A stretch of DNA of 20,394 nt from a virus. The stretch covers positions 1 to 20,394 of the IMG/VR virus record IMGVR_UViG_3300042560_001311, one strand, 5' to 3'. This document shows positions 6,046-15,383 of the stretch, piece after piece; the stretch's first letter is position 1; every line of letters begins with the position of its first letter. Both the position numbers and the translations under genes were made by a program. The notes beneath the pieces are model-generated. The model saw only the letters and a program-made list of their open reading frames with translations, was not told where the DNA came from and ran no database searches.

Positions 6046-6293
6046 ACAAGGAACTGAGCAAGGAAGAGCATCCCATCGGCATGGGCATCGATGAGATGAG
6101 TGCCACGGTGGATCAGTTGAGGAGCGGATCCGGGAAGCCGGCGATCCTCATCACCGTGGACGAGTACGAGAACAGCTACAAGATCAACATGTGCAGCTTC
6201 AACCTCGATGAGTACGGGGTAGTTCTCACCCTTATCCAAGCTGTCAGCATGCTTCGGGAAAACATTCAAACGCGCCCGGAGATGATGCAATGA
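6042..6293 (+). CDS. Hypothetical protein, 83 residues
   Basis: Start chosen at GTG 6042 because it overlaps the previous TGA (GTGA) and has GGAG six bases upstream; a TTG at 6030 is also in frame. The protein is acidic with alternating polar and hydrophobic stretches (ILITVDEYENSYKINMCSF, then VVLTLIQAVSMLREN), suggesting a small alpha/beta fold. No known family or motif was recognised. It ends in an ATGA overlap with the HNH-like gene, so the run 5734-8205 is translated as one coupled unit. Confidence 0.5.
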   Translation: MNKELSKEEHPIGMGIDEMSATVDQLRSGSGKPAILITVDEYENSYKINMCSFNLDEYGVVLTLIQAVSMLRENIQTRPEMMQ

Positions 6294-6526
6294 GGGACTA
6301 CAAGCAGGAGTACCAGACCCAGAAAGCGAGAGGTGAACACCCCTCTCGGATGGAGCGCCAAAGGGCCAGGAGAGCCCTGGATGCGAAGGGAGTGGACCGA
6401 GCGGGCAAGGACGTAGCGCACACCGTTGCGCTGTCCAAGGGCGGTTCAAACAAGGACGGGTACAGGCTGACCAGCCCCTCCAAGAACCGTAGCTTTCCAA
6501 GGAAGAAGGACGGGTCCATGAAGTGA
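6290..6526 (+). CDS. Small HNH-nuclease-like protein
   Basis: A 78-residue basic protein coupled to the upstream gene by ATGA. The C-terminal half, GKDVAHTVALSKGGSNKDGY then SPSKNRSFPRK, follows the D-x2-H...GGSN...KNRS pattern of small phage HNH-like proteins, where His and Asn form the beta-beta-alpha metal site. The first half is a charged helix (YKQEYQTQKARGEHPSRMER). HNH proteins cut DNA and in phages can act in packaging or recombination. Here the classic final His appears replaced, so it may be a reduced or non-catalytic version. It sits directly before the primase-helicase. Confidence 0.6.
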   Translation: MRDYKQEYQTQKARGEHPSRMERQRARRALDAKGVDRAGKDVAHTVALSKGGSNKDGYRLTSPSKNRSFPRKKDGSMK

Positions 6527-8205
6527 TAGCCCTCGACGGCATTCAGTTCCAAGACAACGACCGCGTGACCTGCCCCGAGTGCTCGGGAGACAGGAAAAAA
6601 ACAAGAAGCAAAGACATGACCCTGACCCGTAAAGAAGACGGGTCAGTGCTCTACTTTTGCCATCACTGCGGTGTAAACGGGATCATTCCAGTCCATCAAC
6701 ACAGGAAGGAGAGATTCGTGCAGGCGGTTCCCAAGATACAGGACGCATCGCTGACTGAAGAGCACTATCAATGGCTTGAGAGCCGAGGCATCTCAAGGCT
6801 GACAGCAGATGACGCAAAGCTCTTTTCAACGAGGAAATACTTCAACAAGCTAGACCGGGAGGAGGATGCCATTGGGTTCCCTTACTTCCGGGACGGAGCG
6901 ATGGTCGCAGCCAAGTACAGGGCTGTACCTGAGAAGGCATTTACACAGGATGCCGGAGGAGCGCATGATTTCTTCGGGATGCAATGGGCAGACAAGACAA
7001 AGCCTCTGGTCATAGTCGAAGGAGAGATCGATGTCCTCTCAGCAAGAGAGGCGGGCATCGATAACGTCGTGTCTGTACCCGGTGGTGCGCCGCTGAAGGT
7101 GGCAGATGGGAAAGTTCTCCCATCAGAGGACAAGAAGTTCGCATTTGTATGGAACGCACGGGAACTCCTGGACGCAGTTCCATACGTTGTCTTGGCTACA
7201 GACCAAGACCCTCCTGGGCAAGCGTTGGCCGAGGAGTTGGCTCGCCGGATTGGCAAAGACAAGTGCCGTCTTGCGAAGTTCGATGGGAAGGATTTCAACG
7301 AGATCCTCAATGACCCCTCTCGGAATGGCAAAGAGGATGTGCGGGGGATCGTGGAGGCGGCGGAGCCGTACCCCATCGCGGGCTTGTCGGATGCGTCCAC
7401 CTTCGCAGAGCGTGTAAACGAACTCTATACCCGAGGGCAAGGGTCGGGTTTCAGTACCGGCTACCCGGCACTCGACACCATCTACACAGTAGCCCCGGGT
7501 CAGTTGACCGTGGTCACCGGCTACCCATCCTCGGGCAAGTCGAACTTCGTTGATCAGCTAATGGTCAACCTAGCCCAGAAGAGTGATTGGAAGTTTGCGG
7601 TCGCGTCATTTGAGAACAGCCCAGAGATTCACATTAGCAGACTCATGGAGATCTACCTGCGGAAGCGGTTTTTTGAGGGCAGGGATCGCATGACGGAAGA
7701 GGAGAAGAACGAAGCGTTTACATGGGTCAAAGATCACTTCCTCTTCATTGACTCGGCGGGAGAAGAGCCCAACACCCTAGATTCCATCCTGACCAGGGCC
7801 AGGGCTGCAGTCAAAAGGATGGGGATCCGAGGGATGGTGATCGACCCATACAACTACATTGACCTTGACAGAAAGGACACCACAGAGACGGACGCTATCA
7901 GTCAGATGCTGACCAGGGTCCAGAGGTTCTGCAAGGCTCAGGACGTTCACACATGGTTCGTGGCCCATCCCTCAAAGATGCAGCGGTCAGGGACAGATCA
8001 ACCAAGACCGGATGGCATGAGCATCAGCGGGTCAATGGCATGGTGGGCCAAGGCAGACTGCGGCTTGACGGTCCACCGGCAGGATAGGTACGTCGAGATC
8101 GCAGTTTGGAAATGCCGGTATCGGTGGGTCGGGACGCAGGGGGAGACTACCCTCCTCTTCAACCGAACATCAGGCACCTACGTCGAGAACCTCGACGCCT
8201 TCTGA
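6523..8205 (+). CDS. T7 gp4-like DNA primase-helicase
   Basis: 560 residues, close to the 566 of T7 gp4, starting at GTG 6523 (GTGA overlap). Domains in order: zinc-binding domain with C17-x2-C20 and C46-HH-C49; TOPRIM primase core with VEGEID (165-170) and ATDQDPPG (D227, D229); RecA/DnaB-type helicase with Walker A GYPSSGKS (333-340), Walker B VIDPYNY (439-445) and a later FVAHPSKM motif. It should unwind the fork as a hexameric ring and prime the lagging strand. All key residues are present. It ends the rightward early operon and runs into the double hairpin at 8213. Confidence 0.92.
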   Translation: MIALDGIQFQDNDRVTCPECSGDRKKTRSKDMTLTRKEDGSVLYFCHHCGVNGIIPVHQHRKERFVQAVPKIQDASLTEEHYQWLESRGISRLTADDAKLFSTRKYFNKLDREEDAIGFPYFRDGAMVAAKYRAVPEKAFTQDAGGAHDFFGMQWADKTKPLVIVEGEIDVLSAREAGIDNVVSVPGGAPLKVADGKVLPSEDKKFAFVWNARELLDAVPYVVLATDQDPPGQALAEELARRIGKDKCRLAKFDGKDFNEILNDPSRNGKEDVRGIVEAAEPYPIAGLSDASTFAERVNELYTRGQGSGFSTGYPALDTIYTVAPGQLTVVTGYPSSGKSNFVDQLMVNLAQKSDWKFAVASFENSPEIHISRLMEIYLRKRFFEGRDRMTEEEKNEAFTWVKDHFLFIDSAGEEPNTLDSILTRARAAVKRMGIRGMVIDPYNYIDLDRKDTTETDAISQMLTRVQRFCKAQDVHTWFVAHPSKMQRSGTDQPRPDGMSISGSMAWWAKADCGLTVHRQDRYVEIAVWKCRYRWVGTQGETTLLFNRTSGTYVENLDAF

Positions 8206-9097: not shown

Positions 9098-9414
9098 TTA
9101 CACAATGAGTTCGTCGGGGACGTCAACCTCGTCACCGAGGCGGGATGCGACGTAGCAGCGCATCGCTGCTATCAGCGGCGTGGGACCGTAGCCCCACCGA
9201 TACCCTGCGCCCTTGGCAGTGATGCTGCCGAACGCCTCCCACTCCCTGCCGGTAGAGCAGGGGGCGTTTCGACGGATGCCGATCTCCTCGCGCTCGATGA
9301 TCGGCCCGCCCTCCTCCCAGGAGGTCGACGGGTGGTACCAGGAAGGGGGCCTTCGCACTTCCTCACCGCCCAGTCAAGGGCGGGGCCGGTGAGGTTGTCT
9401 GTCTTGATCTTCAT
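9098..9414 (-). pseudogene. ninX: NinX/DUF2591 family gene with a frameshift
   Basis: The N-terminus, MKIKTDNLTGPALDWAVRKC then EG, is in one frame from ATG 9414. The rest of the family signature, WYHPSTSWEEGGPIIEREE then YGPTPLIAAMRCYVASRLGD, continues in the frame one base back down to TAA 9098. The frames join at a run of five C (9346-9350 region). One extra C would restore a continuous protein of about 105 residues. So this is either a recent inactivating indel, a sequencing error, or less likely a -1 frameshift. NinX proteins belong to the P22/lambda nin region and have no settled biochemical role. The coupling motif GAGG-TGTAAAC-ATG supplies its ribosome-binding site. Confidence 0.75.
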
Positions 9415-10019: not shown

Positions 10020-10364
10020 TCAGTAATTGAACGTGACACTCATCCGCACCGCGTATCGATGCTTGCCGACCCTCCTCGCCTCCACCCAGCGAGAGGCGCA
10101 GCCGCAGCAGTCGTGCTCATGCCTGCATGACGACCCCCCGAGGGTATCGGCCAGGGCCTGGGCGATGGCGCGGGCGGCGCGGCGGTCCCGGGTGCGGACG
10201 GTGGCGGTGGACGTGTAAACGCCCCCGTCGTCATAGTCTTGAGGCGGTCGGGCCAGCCGCCACGGGGTGAGGCGGGCCGCGCCTACGTGCCGGTCGTCGT
10301 CCAGGCTGTCCCAGCCCGGGGCGAAGCGATGCGTCAAGCGCACGTAGAGGTCAGTTGAGAACAT
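10020..10364 (-). CDS. Hypothetical Cys/His-cluster protein, 114 residues
   Basis: Frame from ATG 10364 with GGAG eight bases upstream. It begins with a strand (FSTDLYVRLTHRFAPGWDS) and carries many Arg. It has a compact cluster CRHEHDCCGCASRW at residues ~80-93 that could bind a metal, although in the middle of the protein this could also be a disulfide or a chance cluster. A basic C-terminus ends in VRMSVTFNY. No family was recognised. Part of the GC-rich leftward operon. Confidence 0.5.
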   Translation of the reverse strand: MFSTDLYVRLTHRFAPGWDSLDDDRHVGAARLTPWRLARPPQDYDDGGVYTSTATVRTRDRRAARAIAQALADTLGGSSCRHEHDCCGCASRWVEARRVGKHRYAVRMSVTFNY

Positions 10365-10418: not shown

Positions 10419-10490
10419 TCAAATAATGCCAATCAACATAAGTGCCGCGACAACGGTGCAGAGAATCAGCAATAGGCGGTCGTCGTTCAT
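10419..10490 (-). CDS. Tiny single-transmembrane protein, 23 residues
   Basis: A 23-residue frame made almost entirely of one hydrophobic helix: a short acidic MNDDR start and then LLLILCTVVAALMLIGII. Its ATG 10490 overlaps the TGA of the VWA gene as ATGA, so it would be translated by coupling to that gene. The acidic N-terminus and helix suggest a small membrane peptide. Whether it is a membrane anchor or regulator of the adjacent AAA+/VWA machine, or unrelated, is unknown. Too short for confident prediction; the coupling is the main support. Confidence 0.45.
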   Translation of the reverse strand: MNDDRLLLILCTVVAALMLIGII

Positions 10491-12181
10491 TGCGAATCCC
10501 TCATCTGTCCGAAAGCCACGCGCCCTAGGTCTTCTAGACGGTCGACCTGCACCGCCGTGTTGCCATAGGTTTCGCTGACGTTGTGCCCGATTCCTAAGCC
10601 GATCACGCGGATGCCAAGCGCCCGGGCGGCCTCGATCTGGCGGGCGGTCGACCAGATGTTTCCGTCGCCGTCGCTGATGCTGATCAGGATCTTTCGCTGC
10701 GCGGGGTGGGCCATCAGGGCCTCGGTTGCGTAGCGTGCGGCTGCGTAGTCGTTGGTATCTCCCTGTCCGTGTAAACGACGCAAGTCCGGCAGCGCCTTGC
10801 GCCACGGCTGACCCCAACCCTTTAGGATCACCGAGTCGCTGCCGAATGCGATCAACATGGACTCACCACGCGCCTGTGCCACCGAGTCGAGCAGCGCGGC
10901 GCAGGTCGCTACCGCCAGACCTATGCGGGAAGTCTCCACCTTGTTCCGGATTCTGCTGAGGAGGTACTCGTCGTGCACTGTGCAGCCGCCCGCAGGGAAC
11001 ATCGAGCCCGAGACGTCCAGCATGATGCAGACCGCTGAGTCAATGCCATCGGTCGAGTGGCGGCGGGCGAATACTTCCCTTTTGCCAGTCGCCACGCTGG
11101 CGAGTGCGGGTCGGTGCAGGGTGCCGGACCGATAGCCTCCCTCGCGCCACTCGGTCGCGCTGTTCTCCAACATCTTGCGGACCTCCAAGCGCATGCGGGC
11201 CGGGACCGTTGCTTCTGTGGGCCAGATGTCCATCGGGGCGCAAGAGGGCAGGCGTGCTTGAAGTACTGACTCACGGGTGTAGGTTCCGCCGGGTGCGCTC
11301 TCCTCGGGCCTCGGTTGTGAGGGCTCTACCTCTCGCGCCTGCTGGTGCCCACTGGGGGCCCTAGCGGGGCCTGTAGGCGCGTCTTGCGGCTCACCCTTGG
11401 TTTGACCTTCGTCCTGGCCTTGCGCGTCTCCTGCGCCTTCCTGGCCGTCGCCCTGGCCGTTCTGTCCCTGGCTCCCTTGGTCGTCGCCTTGTCCGTCCTG
11501 GCTCTGGTCTTCGTCCTGGCTTCCATGGCCGTCGCCCTGGTCTTCGTCCTGTCCCTGGGGCGGCTGTTGCAGTTGGTCGAACACCCAACGGGCAAGCTCC
11601 AGCGTGTCGCTGGTCGAGTGGCAGGTGTCGAGTCTCGATGCGGCGGTGCGCCAGATCGGGATCAACTCGGCGGGCGTGGGTACGGTGTGACCGTAGTCGC
11701 GCAGGTAGACCGCAAGGCTGAACGGGTATTGCGCCGGGTCGGCCCAGTCGGTCACGCCTTCGCGGGCCTGGGTGACCATGGTCCCGAGCAGTTCGCGCAG
11801 CAACGCACCGATGTTGCCCGTCAGCCCTGCGCGGATGGCTTTGCGCTCGATCCAGGCGTCTTCGATGGCGTTGTGCAGGGTATCGACATAGCGCCGACCG
11901 TCGGACCATACAAAAGTTGTGAACTTCCGGTGTAAAAGCTCATGGACTACATAACCGGCGTAGTGATGGATAGTGGCGCGGGTGACGGTGGCGGCGTCTC
12001 CGATGTCGGACAAGATCATGTTTCCCGCTGCGTTGATTGCGGCGGTCTGGATGCGGCTCGACCATTGGATAGTGATCGGTGGCAGGCCGAGCGTCTTGCA
12101 CAGTCGATGCGCGAACGCCTCAAGCCCAGCCCGGGCCTCGATGCCGCGCATGGTGCGGCTCATAAGTAGATCGGTGGTCAC
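10487..12181 (-). CDS. CobT/DUF2201-like metallopeptidase-VWA protein
   Basis: 564 residues from GTG 12181 (GTGA overlap, GAGGAG upstream). The N-terminal part holds HELLH at 80-84 followed by NAIEDAWIE (E107 as a possible third zinc ligand), the layout of putative metallopeptidase domains that precede VWA domains. Residues ~205-270 are a Gln/Asp/Gly-rich linker. The VWA domain spans ~380-555 with the MIDAS motif DVSGSM (389-394), T477 and D504-D506. This architecture pairs with MoxR-type AAA+ ATPases, as in CobS-CobT chelatases and gas-vesicle or metal-insertion systems. The direct upstream partner is such an ATPase. Likely role: ATP-driven substrate or metal handling, or proteolysis. Substrate unknown. 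Confidence 0.8.
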   Translation of the reverse strand: MTTDLLMSRTMRGIEARAGLEAFAHRLCKTLGLPPITIQWSSRIQTAAINAAGNMILSDIGDAATVTRATIHHYAGYVVHELLHRKFTTFVWSDGRRYVDTLHNAIEDAWIERKAIRAGLTGNIGALLRELLGTMVTQAREGVTDWADPAQYPFSLAVYLRDYGHTVPTPAELIPIWRTAASRLDTCHSTSDTLELARWVFDQLQQPPQGQDEDQGDGHGSQDEDQSQDGQGDDQGSQGQNGQGDGQEGAGDAQGQDEGQTKGEPQDAPTGPARAPSGHQQAREVEPSQPRPEESAPGGTYTRESVLQARLPSCAPMDIWPTEATVPARMRLEVRKMLENSATEWREGGYRSGTLHRPALASVATGKREVFARRHSTDGIDSAVCIMLDVSGSMFPAGGCTVHDEYLLSRIRNKVETSRIGLAVATCAALLDSVAQARGESMLIAFGSDSVILKGWGQPWRKALPDLRRLHGQGDTNDYAAARYATEALMAHPAQRKILISISDGDGNIWSTARQIEAARALGIRVIGLGIGHNVSETYGNTAVQVDRLEDLGRVAFGQMRDSQ

Positions 12182-13695
12182 AGTGCGGACTCCTCGGATA
12201 CGAGTGCTTCATCGACGCATGCGCTGTAAACGGCTGCAAGTGCAGCTTCAGACTCGGCGGGCTGGCGGGCAGCGATTGCCGACCTCCAAGCCTCGGCCAC
12301 CGGCAGGACCCGGGCGGCCTCGATGAACGCCACCATCTGCCGGATGCTGGGGGCGTCGATGATGTCGCCGCTATCGACCTTCGACCGCAACACGCCCATG
12401 GCCGCGACTAGGTGCGTTGCCAGGGCGGGAGTGCATCCGGTGTGCCGGGTCAGTGCTTCGGCCTCGGTGGCAGCGTCGAGGTAGCGGAACGGGACCACTA
12501 GGGAGAACCGCTCGGAGAATGCGACGTTCATCGGCTGGACCCCGGCGTATCGTCCCGACGGATCACCCTGGGTCAGGTCATTGCTGGCGGCTAGGTAGAT
12601 GGTCCCCGGGGCGCGGTGCCAGACCTGACCGGCATAGGCAACCTGGGCTTGCCGCTCCAGGAAAGCGTTCAGCGCCGACAGTGCACCGGGTTGTCCCATG
12701 CCGACCTCGTCCAACAGGCAAACAGCGCCCGGGGTGGTGTATGCGGCCAGGACCGCGCCCGGTTCGAACACGGTCGAGCCGTTGCTGAGGCCGGTCGCTC
12801 CAAGGAAGTCGTCCCGAGTGCTGAAGCGGTCGAAGACGAAGCGCCGGAACATGCGCCCGGTGCGGGCGGCGAATTGCTGCGCCGTCTGAGTCTTGCCTGT
12901 GCCTGCTGGACCACCTAGCCATAGATTGCGCCCATGAGTCGCGGCGATGTGCAGGTGTCGCACGATGGACTCGGACCAAATGAAGCACGGGTCCACGGCT
13001 GGGGCCTCGGGGTGGGTGTAGGTTGCGAACATCAGCGGGTTGCCTTTGGCATCGGACAGGTCCAGGCCGAAAAGGGTGAGCGCCGACTGTCGCCCCGTGG
13101 GCGCTGCAGTGGCAGCGGCGACGATGCTGGGGGCCGTCTGCGGCGTGGCCTGGGCGATCAGGGGGGCGAGTGCCGCCCGCACCTGGGTGGCGATCTCCGC
13201 ATTGATCGCGGGGCCAGCATCGCGCAGCGCCTCGACCTCGGCTTTGATTCCGGCCCAAATGGTGGCCGATGCCCGGTCGGACGCCTCGGCCAGGGTCTTC
13301 AGGACTGCAACGGTCTGCGTGACCTGCGACACCGCAGTGCGGATAGACGCGACCTCCGCGCCCGTCCTGAGGGCCTCTTGCTCGGCCCGGGCTGCGACCT
13401 GGGCAGCGGCGTCGATCCTGGGATCGGGCTGGGGAGTGGAGGGGCGGGGAGGCTGGAAGGTGGGCTGCGGCAGGCCGACGGTAGCCGTGCCGATGGTGGC
13501 GGGGGGCTGGGCGATTACGCCCGAGACCGCCTGCCGCACCTGATCAATCGTGACTGTTCCACGGGAAACCTCGTTCGCAAGGGCCTGCGCGGCCTCGACC
13601 TTGTTTCGGTCGGCGGGGCCGACGATCAGGTTGGCGGCTCGGGCGAGTTGTGCCCCGGGCAGGGCGAGCAGGGTCTGAAGGACTCTGGTGTTCAT
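12178..13695 (-). CDS. MoxR/CobS-type AAA+ ATPase
   Basis: 505 residues from ATG 13695 (GAGGAG six bases upstream); GTG 13701 in frame overlaps the previous stop. Residues ~1-65 form a small helical domain, then a Pro-rich linker and a long Ala-rich helical/coiled region (~95-185). The AAA+ module has Walker A GPAGTGKT (262-269), Walker B CLLDEV (326-331), sensor 1 AASND (N372) and a SERF arginine finger (R396). The extended N-terminus is unlike the short MoxR proteins and may bind substrate or the membrane. It is in an operon with a VWA partner, which in this family couples ATP hydrolysis to remodelling of a target. Confidence 0.85.
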   Translation of the reverse strand: MNTRVLQTLLALPGAQLARAANLIVGPADRNKVEAAQALANEVSRGTVTIDQVRQAVSGVIAQPPATIGTATVGLPQPTFQPPRPSTPQPDPRIDAAAQVAARAEQEALRTGAEVASIRTAVSQVTQTVAVLKTLAEASDRASATIWAGIKAEVEALRDAGPAINAEIATQVRAALAPLIAQATPQTAPSIVAAATAAPTGRQSALTLFGLDLSDAKGNPLMFATYTHPEAPAVDPCFIWSESIVRHLHIAATHGRNLWLGGPAGTGKTQTAQQFAARTGRMFRRFVFDRFSTRDDFLGATGLSNGSTVFEPGAVLAAYTTPGAVCLLDEVGMGQPGALSALNAFLERQAQVAYAGQVWHRAPGTIYLAASNDLTQGDPSGRYAGVQPMNVAFSERFSLVVPFRYLDAATEAEALTRHTGCTPALATHLVAAMGVLRSKVDSGDIIDAPSIRQMVAFIEAARVLPVAEAWRSAIAARQPAESEAALAAVYSACVDEALVSEESAL

Positions 13696-13697
13696 GG

Positions 13698-14279
13698 TCA
13701 CTCCTCGTCGTTGGACTCAAGCTGGAACTGCTCACCATCCTGGGAGCAGAGGGGCAGACCTTTCTCGGCCCAGGTGCGGGTCAGCCTGATGGTGTAGCCG
13801 CACCCGGGGCAGACTGCCTTGAGCATGCGAGTCGATTGCTTTGGCTTGGCCGACATGATCAGGTGGGCGTGGGGATAGGGTCCGAGGTCGGCCAGGATGG
13901 CGCTGTAGCGGGCGTCGAATTCGGGGCCGGGGCCGGTGCTCTTCCAGCCCTTCGCGCCCGCGACTAGACCCATGTTCCAGGCATGGGCGGCGAACGTCTT
14001 GCTATGGTTCATCGAACCCGGCAGGGCGTGGCACAACTCGTGAATGAGGGTGGCGGCCACCGTGGTGACATCGTCCACGACCGGCGAGATGAGGATCTCG
14101 ACCGTCCCGTCGGCGCTGGAGGCGTCGGCCCAGCACTCGCCAATCGCGCCGCTGCGGCGGGCGCTGCTGGGGAATCCGCAGGCGACGCGGATGCGGGCGG
14201 GGAGGGACTGCCCAGTGTGGGCCGGGAACAGGGGGCGGACTTCGTCCACCAGTTGGGTAAGCCAGTCTTCGCGTGTCAT
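13698..14279 (-). CDS. SprT-like zinc metalloprotease
   Basis: 193 residues from ATG 14279 with AGGAGG five bases upstream. HELCH at 80-84 within VAATLIHELCHALPGS, plus H92 in MNHSKTF, matches the active site of SprT/Spartan-type gluzincin-like proteases (two His of HExxH and a third His). A C-terminal zinc-ribbon-like part has C157-x2-C160 and C178; a fourth ligand is not evident. SprT-like enzymes in eukaryotes degrade DNA-protein crosslinks; bacterial ones are poorly known. First gene of the leftward operon that continues with the AAA+ and metallopeptidase-VWA genes, so a role as the cutting subunit is an attractive inference. Confidence 0.8.
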   Translation of the reverse strand: MTREDWLTQLVDEVRPLFPAHTGQSLPARIRVACGFPSSARRSGAIGECWADASSADGTVEILISPVVDDVTTVAATLIHELCHALPGSMNHSKTFAAHAWNMGLVAGAKGWKSTGPGPEFDARYSAILADLGPYPHAHLIMSAKPKQSTRMLKAVCPGCGYTIRLTRTWAEKGLPLCSQDGEQFQLESNDEE

Positions 14280-14729: not shown

Positions 14730-15383
14730 ATGTACAAAACCACAAGGGAAGACAGCGAGCCTGGGCCGCAGCGGGGTCGAGCGAGCCAGCGGGACGTGCT
14801 CGATGCACTCGCCCAGGCTGAGGCTGACCTGGACCGTTTACACGAAACAGAGCCCGGGCCGGTAGGTAGCGAAGCGGAACAGATGGCATGGGCTTCACCG
14901 GCACCGCACAAGAGGGCAGACGGGCAGTTGAAGGGTGCTCCCAGCTATCGTCGTCTCCGCCCGCTGACAGCCAAGCAACAGGACTTCGCAAGACGGGTCA
15001 TAGAGGGCAGCAGCCTCCGTCAGGCATATAGGGATGCCTATGGGTCCAGTGCCTCGGATGAGTCAGCGAGCGTCCAGGCATACCGGCTGGGGCGCAACCC
15101 GAGGATCAGGGCATTGATCGATCAAGCCTGGGAACAGACACAAGAGGCGCTGGTGGAGGACCACATAGCGGCGAGGAGGTACGTGGTGAGGAGTCTTGTG
15201 GAGCTGAGCAAAGGGACCGCTGACAACACCCGGCTGCGAGCCCTGGAGCTACTCGGCAAGGCCTCAGGCGCGTTTACACCAGCACCAGCCGAGCGTGACC
15301 GCACCGCGTCGCCTGACGCACTGCGCCGAGACCTAGCGCAGCACCTGCGCCTAGTGGGCAAGACCGGCACCGATGCCGGGTGA
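14730..15383 (+). CDS. terS: Terminase small subunit
   Basis: 217 residues from ATG 14730. The ribosome-binding site is weak, and GTG 14794 is an alternative start. After a charged N-terminal ~85 residues comes the signature LTAKQQDFARRVIEGSSLRQ AYRDAYG (split here; residues ~88-114), the helix-turn-helix of Terminase_2-type small subunits. It is followed by a helical oligomerisation region (VEDHIAARRYVVRSLVELSK). TerS binds the pac or cos site and feeds DNA to TerL, encoded 480 bp downstream. Codon use is GC-rich, like the left half of the window rather than like terL. The C-terminus is a basic, unstructured tail. Confidence 0.8.
   Translation: MYKTTREDSEPGPQRGRASQRDVLDALAQAEADLDRLHETEPGPVGSEAEQMAWASPAPHKRADGQLKGAPSYRRLRPLTAKQQDFARRVIEGSSLRQAYRDAYGSSASDESASVQAYRLGRNPRIRALIDQAWEQTQEALVEDHIAARRYVVRSLVELSKGTADNTRLRALELLGKASGAFTPAPAERDRTASPDALRRDLAQHLRLVGKTGTDAG

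Follow-up and report, generated by a model that had tools for sequence, protein, structure and literature searches.

A SprT-like protein, a MoxR-type ATPase and a zincin-VWA protein form a phage operon at an interval where some relatives carry ArdC instead

We analysed a 20,394-base contig from a virus (IMG/VR record IMGVR_UViG_3300042560_001311, positions 1 to 20,394, hereafter the window), which contains terminase, portal and primase-helicase genes. It carries four minus-strand genes, with neighbours overlapping by about 4 bases, that encode a SprT-like protein, a MoxR/CobS-type AAA+ ATPase, a protein joining a metallopeptidase (zincin) domain to a VWA domain, and a membrane peptide. The first three genes, here called the trio, recur throughout a diverse family of uncultured phages, and in at least three lineages that lack them the anti-restriction protein ArdC lies in the same interval, between the primase-helicase gene and the gene for the terminase small subunit (terS). 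Because ArdC replaces the trio at this interval, we favour anti-restriction or anti-defence over virion assembly, crosslink repair or cobaltochelatase activity. With a probability of about one half, the trio is an early-expressed, ATP-driven remodelling machine, probably proteolytic, that shields incoming phage DNA from restriction or DNA-bound defence complexes. A sequence-only reading of the window had described the SprT-like protein with a HELCH motif, the ATPase with a long N-terminal extension, the HELLH-VWA protein with an intact DVSGSM metal-ion-dependent adhesion site (MIDAS) and the 23-residue membrane peptide, and all of these are present.

To survey the distribution of the trio, a scan was seeded with the SprT, VWA, MoxR, large terminase subunit (TerL) and primase-helicase proteins. 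At least 168 sequence-distinct trios were recovered, all in the one phage family and all on one strand (168/168), and the 289 loci with four domains, which were not deduplicated, share the same order, SprT followed by MoxR and VWA. The trio thus recurs as a unit, and its recurrence goes far beyond chance. The sequence-only reading would have been undermined had homologous operons lacked SprT; among 138 loci fetched with VWA and MoxR queries, SprT is found in 133, and the other 5 stop at the contig edge. Since SprT is present wherever sequence upstream of the pair is available (133/133), we regard it as a core gene of this phage family. Misassembly of the window contig was ruled out, as many independent contigs have the same locus. 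The trio lies in a syntenic setting of terminase, portal, primase-helicase, exonuclease and annealing genes, and relatives that carry it are contigs of 55-66 kb with an HTVC023P-like TerL, the closest isolates by TerL being HTVC023P-type podoviruses (50-58%). A scan of genome contigs for a cellular source (query A1) gave no confirmed relative, and the CobT of phage CRP-810, used as a query, found no viral relatives.

We then turned to the interval itself, using contigs that span primase-helicase to terS, clustered at 99% primase-helicase identity. The trio is present in 63 clusters, ArdC in 4, neither in 1 and both in none (Fisher test, p = 6e-6, relatedness ignored). In the contig L254, whose TerL and portal are 82% and 72% identical to those of the window, SprT, MoxR and VWA are all absent, and an ArdC gene lies on the minus strand between primase-helicase and terS (ArdcN, 46.5 bits; cut-off, 22.6). 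All the ArdC proteins score above the ArdcN cut-off, with E values from 5e-12 to 8e-35, and have an intact HExxH. They fall into at least three lineages (L254/L391/L393/L395; L425; L433/L456), and L433 and L456 are 75% identical in ArdC and 73% in primase-helicase. The exchanges between trio and ArdC are recent, because the nearest relatives of L456 (L453, 95% primase-helicase identity) and of L425 (L420, 92%) carry the trio; L425 also retains 52 residues of a SprT zinc ribbon. Consistently, the 21 contigs of 55-66 kb with a trio all lack ArdC, MoxR is missing from all 5 ArdC records, one of which (that of L391) is 58.9 kb long, and the ArdcN domain has no match in the trio proteins. ArdC of plasmid R388 protects against the type I system HsdRMS; its metalloprotease domain has the SprT domain of Spartan as nearest fold, and the anti-HsdRMS function does not depend on the protease residue (PMC7213743). 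The SprT catalytic site of the trio, lost repeatedly as described below, offers a parallel to this dispensable protease.

Several points weigh against an anti-restriction role. One 64-kb contig, L500, has neither trio nor ArdC, and related HTVC023P-type phages likewise lack MoxR and ArdC. Replacements number at least three rather than dozens, and phylogeny is not accounted for in the Fisher value. ArdC also binds single-stranded DNA, so the shared role could be general DNA protection or repair. PADLOC gave no match for the trio, although it catalogues defence and not anti-defence systems. There is a small but real chance that the trio is a chaperone or regulator of a general kind, acting on some other complex of the phage or the host, that ArdC turnover is coincidental and that the locus is a hot spot where unrelated early genes gather. 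Many unrelated small genes do occupy the same interval, the partners vary, with a DUF7192 protein in place of zincin-VWA in the loci L350, L352, L353 and L358, and the ArdC events are few. Coincidence, however, sits poorly with the finding that trio and ArdC never occur together in the sampled intervals, that all trio-less lineages but one have ArdC, and that an ArdC probe matched few phage records (at least 58 of 50,697).

The SprT-like protein was next examined by profile and structure comparison. PF10263 matches every one of 30 proteins in the alignment (E <= 0.1; lowest, 1.2e-5), and the window protein matches phrog_6361 (E 3e-41). We call it only SprT-like because it scores below the Pfam SprT-like gathering score (17.5 versus 25.6 bits), and we claim no SprT/Spartan membership at the fold level, since Foldseek with its model returned no hit at E < 0.001, abylysin being weakly matched (E 0.05) and Spartan not found. 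The HExxH motif, present in the window protein, is absent in 41 of 161 distinct SprT proteins of intact trios; on a SprT tree built without the catalytic columns this takes 7 changes or more, and on the MoxR tree 12. Proteins without HExxH still have the GEC(W) region as well as the zinc ribbon at the C terminus. Our initial conclusion that this HExxH is invariant was withdrawn when sampling through MoxR, VWA and primase-helicase revealed frequent loss; the apparent invariance arose because loci had been collected with a SprT query. In L425 and L500, where the machine has been lost, only the SprT zinc ribbon remains, as either a remnant or a small DNA-binding gene. Most simply, the SprT subunit would be an adaptor whose conserved role is binding, since its HExxH is often lost and its zinc ribbon kept.

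These data also bear on the proposal of the sequence-only reading that the operon acts on DNA-protein crosslinks or on host defence proteins. The ArdC replacement lends real support to one of these targets, host defence. Crosslink or replication-fork clearance, in which the trio would be a phage analogue of Spartan or Wss1 with a Cdc48-like motor that clears phage DNA for replication, we consider unlikely. It would suit a SprT-like protein with a zinc ribbon, an operon co-directional with genes for an annealing protein, an exonuclease and a single-stranded DNA-binding (SSB)-like protein, and the Spartan-like fold of ArdC. Yet the SprT catalytic site is gone in a quarter of distinct trios, the known role of ArdC is anti-restriction, and the structure search points weakly to abylysin rather than to Spartan.

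The metallopeptidase domain of the zincin-VWA protein shows the opposite pattern of conservation. A helix carrying HExxH, followed by a helix with a candidate third-ligand motif, is the layout expected of a gluzincin-type metallopeptidase. HExxH is kept in 167/168 distinct trios, and in 164/168 together with the pattern of the second helix. The zincin-VWA protein is therefore best read as the main, conserved protease candidate, because its HExxH is kept while that of SprT is often lost. The earlier idea of two HExxH sites serving proteolysis thus does not describe what is conserved, since the VWA-joined HExxH is kept and that of SprT is not. One trio, L494, has the reversed pattern (zincin HELAF, SprT HELCH). 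The VWA half scores above the VWA_2 cut-off, has an intact MIDAS (DxSxS) in 164/168 distinct trios and also matches CobT, weakly. The AlphaFold model of the whole protein has a mean predicted local distance difference test (pLDDT) score of 74.6, with about 85-95 in the N-terminal domain. Foldseek against the PDB found the VWA domain of NorD (E 1e-9), the listed hits covering the VWA half only, and against viral models it found full-length matches with a large root-mean-square deviation. Zincin and VWA are encoded by one open reading frame (ORF) in 89 and by two in 79 of the 168 distinct trios, with at least 4 changes between the fused and split states on the MoxR tree (parsimony). In L041, L043 and L050, an in-frame TAA is followed by a Shine-Dalgarno-like GGAG and an ATG exactly within the linker; fission at the linker is also seen in L072, L075 and L078, in another frame.

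The ATPase of the window matches AAA_5 (E 3e-14, 53.5 bits; cut-off, 22), the bpMoxR model (30 bits; cut-off, 27) and phrog_249 (E 6e-38), a family labelled 'porphyrin biosynthesis'/CobS, and a PDB profile search with it matches CobS/Midasin. Median pairwise identity is 22-23% in its N-terminal extension versus 55% in the AAA core. Docking of SprT by this extension is kept only as an idea, with a partial correlation of distances of 0.24 against 0.59 (a rank correlation) between the AAA core and VWA, a comparison confounded by physical adjacency. The AAA core and VWA evolve as a unit, to which SprT is more loosely tied. Median identity to the window falls from the flanking genes (TerL 79%, primase-helicase 69%, portal 64%) to the trio (SprT 52%, AAA core 50%, VWA 38%). 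The contig L004 shares 94% identity with the window in primase-helicase, 82% in SprT and 39% in VWA, and L090 shares 73% in primase-helicase, 96% in the AAA core, 85% in VWA and 48% in SprT. The trio thus evolves fast and as a sharp mosaic relative to its flanks, as tends to be the case for genes in conflict with the host, which is supportive but not decisive.

In the four DUF7192 loci, a SprT gene (HEYGH) is followed by a phrog_249 AAA+ gene and then by the DUF7192 gene that replaces zincin-VWA; L350 and L358 belong to the same phage family as the window by TerL or primase-helicase. The coupling of SprT and AAA+ therefore outlasts a change of the third partner. CobS-like AAA+ and DUF7192 genes also lie close together in Tunturi_4 and RHph_X2_24, so these ATPases may use DUF7192 as an alternative adaptor.

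CbbQO, NorQD and RavA-ViaA provide the basis for substrate capture by a MIDAS and for ATP-driven remodelling by a MoxR ring. In the mechanism we propose, the three trio proteins would form a complex. Its SprT-like subunit would engage protein-DNA complexes through its zinc ribbon, and through its own protease site where intact; the substrate, captured by the VWA MIDAS, would be remodelled by the MoxR hexamer at the expense of ATP and cleaved by the zincin domain on its flexible linker, the last step being suggested by conservation. The target would be restriction complexes, with type I systems as the first candidate because ArdC acts there. A precedent is ClpXP, an AAA+ protease that degrades HsdR during translocation and thereby relieves type I restriction (PMC4231737). 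A more specific version, which we hold only tentatively, is that an AAA+ metalloprotease machine interchangeable with ArdC strips restriction or other defence complexes off DNA, that SprT has repeatedly become a non-catalytic DNA adaptor, and that the many 'CobST' proteins of phages and archaeal viruses are relatives of this machine and not B12 enzymes.

The position of the operon bears on the proposal of a chaperone-protease for virion assembly and maturation, with structural proteins remodelled by MoxR-VWA and trimmed by the zincin. Iyer et al. (2021) proposed virion assembly for the MoxR and metallopeptidase-vWA pair of group 2.2 jumbo phages and cited a MoxR-vWA role in tail assembly of the Acidianus two-tailed virus (PMC7824862), and the trio adjoins terS. 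For this family we find the proposal rather improbable: L254 and the 58.9-kb L391 record have ArdC and no SprT, MoxR or VWA, the operon lies on the strand opposite terminase and portal, and HTVC023P-type phages that share the TerL lack MoxR. A cobaltochelatase (CobST) that raises host cobalamin synthesis, as put forward in PMC8651126 and in keeping with AAA and VWA domains similar to CobS and CobT, is highly improbable, as the NCBIfam equivalog scores are far below cut-off (CobS TIGR01650, 53/559 bits; CobT TIGR01651, 32/759 bits), no CobN was found in 12 contigs of 55-64 kb (the proposal relies on host CobN), and the HExxH domain, SprT partner and ArdC replacement are left unexplained.

The trio operon is co-directional with recombination and MazG genes, including those for the annealing protein, exonuclease and SSB-like protein; strand and neighbours make its early expression likely. 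The G+C content of the window between 8000 and 15500 is 0.60-0.69 across the trio interval versus 0.49-0.57 in the flanks, which is consistent with exchange of the interval. A membrane peptide similar to that of the window occurs in only some relatives (e.g. L004, L008, L090 and L091), and L016, L099 and L114 have short membrane peptides unrelated to it. A small protein of phrog_20892 is encoded at 10020-10364 (-), downstream of VWA; it stands beside the trio in several relatives too, upstream of SprT in L009-L011, L347 and L349. In L254, a NinX-family protein (PF10765) is encoded in the interval (6111-6455, -). Similar ORFs lie downstream of VWA in some trio loci (L058, L062 and L127), and the window ORF at 9098-9358 (-), phrog_4389, resembles it by eye. 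The features are collected in Table 1.

Table 1 Features of the trio locus (positions in the window unless a contig is named)
Feature	Position	Strand	Remark
Primase-helicase	6523..8205	+	left border of exchangeable interval; phrog_239, E 3e-89
Membrane peptide, 23 aa, single-pass	10419..10490	-	MNDDRLLLILCTVVAALMLIGII; overlaps VWA stop
Metallopeptidase (zincin)-VWA protein, 564 aa	10487..12181	-	HELLH + VWA_2
VWA domain	10490..11209	-	MIDAS DVSGSM at 11000-11017
Acidic/Gln low-complexity linker	11210..11566	-	natural gene split point in many relatives
Zincin domain, N-terminal	11567..12160	-	HExxH helix, then second helix with HNAIEDAWIE
HNAIEDAWIE, candidate third zinc ligand helix	11846..11875	-	
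HELLH, active-site motif of VWA protein	11930..11944	-	
MoxR/CobS-type AAA+ ATPase, 507 aa	12178..13701	-	AAA_5, bpMoxR, phrog_249
Walker B LLDE	12706..12717	-	166/168 distinct trios
Walker A GGPAGTGK	12892..12915	-	168/168 distinct trios
AAA+ N-terminal extension, residues 1-205	13087..13701	-	poorly conserved by identity comparison
SprT-like protein, 193 aa	13698..14279	-	operon gene 1; PF10263, phrog_6361
Zinc ribbon CPGCGY..C, C-terminal in SprT-like protein	13746..13811	-	kept in pseudoprotease versions
HELCH, putative zinc site of SprT-like protein	14028..14042	-	third ligand H92 at 14004-14006
terS	14730..15383	+	right border of exchangeable interval; Terminase_2, phrog_51
Stand-alone SprT zinc ribbon, 52-58 aa	L425:10990-11148; L500:4662-4838	-	rest of machine absent
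SprT in DUF7192-type operon	L352:4302-4901		DUF7192 variant locus

The pair of a MoxR ATPase and a metallopeptidase-vWA protein has already been published for jumbo phages (PMC7824862) and is widely mislabelled 'CobST'. Genes resembling cobS and cobT are reportedly core in T4-like cyanophages and occur in many other tailed viruses, and the role of phage cobS was recently called uncertain. New here are SprT as a core third partner, the loss of the SprT HExxH set against its retention in the zincin, and ArdC at the trio's interval; the literature we found holds no description of the SprT partner, of SprT pseudoprotease forms or of the ArdC exchange. The trio locus offers a concrete, testable alternative to the B12 reading: a remodelling machine whose place can be taken by a protein with known anti-restriction activity. 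It also offers a natural dissection of that machine, in which one protease site persists, the other disappears and the point of separation between zincin and VWA is visible. If true, an ATP-driven class would be added to phage anti-defence strategies.

Compared with known systems, the trio resembles the jumbo-phage pair of Iyer et al. in its MoxR ATPase adjoining a vWA protein with an N-terminal metallopeptidase domain, although the proteins were not directly compared. It differs in occurring in phages of about 60 kb, whose contig size (55-66 kb) and HTVC023P-like TerL place them outside group 2.2, in its SprT-like core subunit upstream, in the frequent zincin/VWA split and in the ArdC exchange; SprT-like proteases of group 2.2 phages are mentioned separately in that study (PMC7824862). 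The 'CobST' of phages and archaeal viruses (PMC8651126; Mae-Yong1326-1, PMC9503304; CRP-810, PMC11288001) is an AAA+ and zincin-VWA pair homologous to that of the trio. In Mae-Yong1326-1 and CRP-810, the protein annotated as CobT has HExxH, the ED..[IL]E motif and the MIDAS, and ICP2 gp40 has HExxH and the MIDAS. Unlike the trio, Mae-Yong1326-1, CRP-810 and ICP2 have MoxR-zincin-VWA without SprT, no SprT relative being detectable in the 'CobST' genomes at E 0.01. Phage N4 gp25 (L083:3165-4307), annotated as an 'HNH endonuclease', has HELWH and a DTSGS MIDAS-like motif and adjoins the gp24 ATPase; it may be another zincin-VWA protein, with no match to the profiles built here. Conversely, the SprT-like protease of the actinobacteriophage Zeta1847 (Microbacterium) is homologous to the trio SprT (44% identity), and the isolates Zeta1847, Mica, Pan1 and CN1 have SprT without MoxR, unlike the trio; in 52 of 59 Pan1-type SprT contigs, neither MoxR nor VWA was found in the flanking sequence retrieved. 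R388 ArdC is, like the trio, a zincin with HExxH, its protease is dispensable in the known role, and ArdC stands at the trio's interval in trio-less relatives; it differs as a single protein with a single-stranded DNA-binding ArdcN domain and has neither an AAA+ motor nor a VWA domain. The trio ATPase and its adjacent VWA protein with intact MIDAS qualify as a MoxR-VWA chaperone pair, and they share the AAA+ and MIDAS VWA partnership with RavA-ViaA, CbbQ-CbbO, NorQ-NorD and CobS-CobT; a conserved HExxH domain and the SprT-like subunit set the trio apart from these. In MoxR-vWA ternary conflict systems the third component is VMAP, iSTAND or a beta-propeller, whereas in the trio it is SprT-like.

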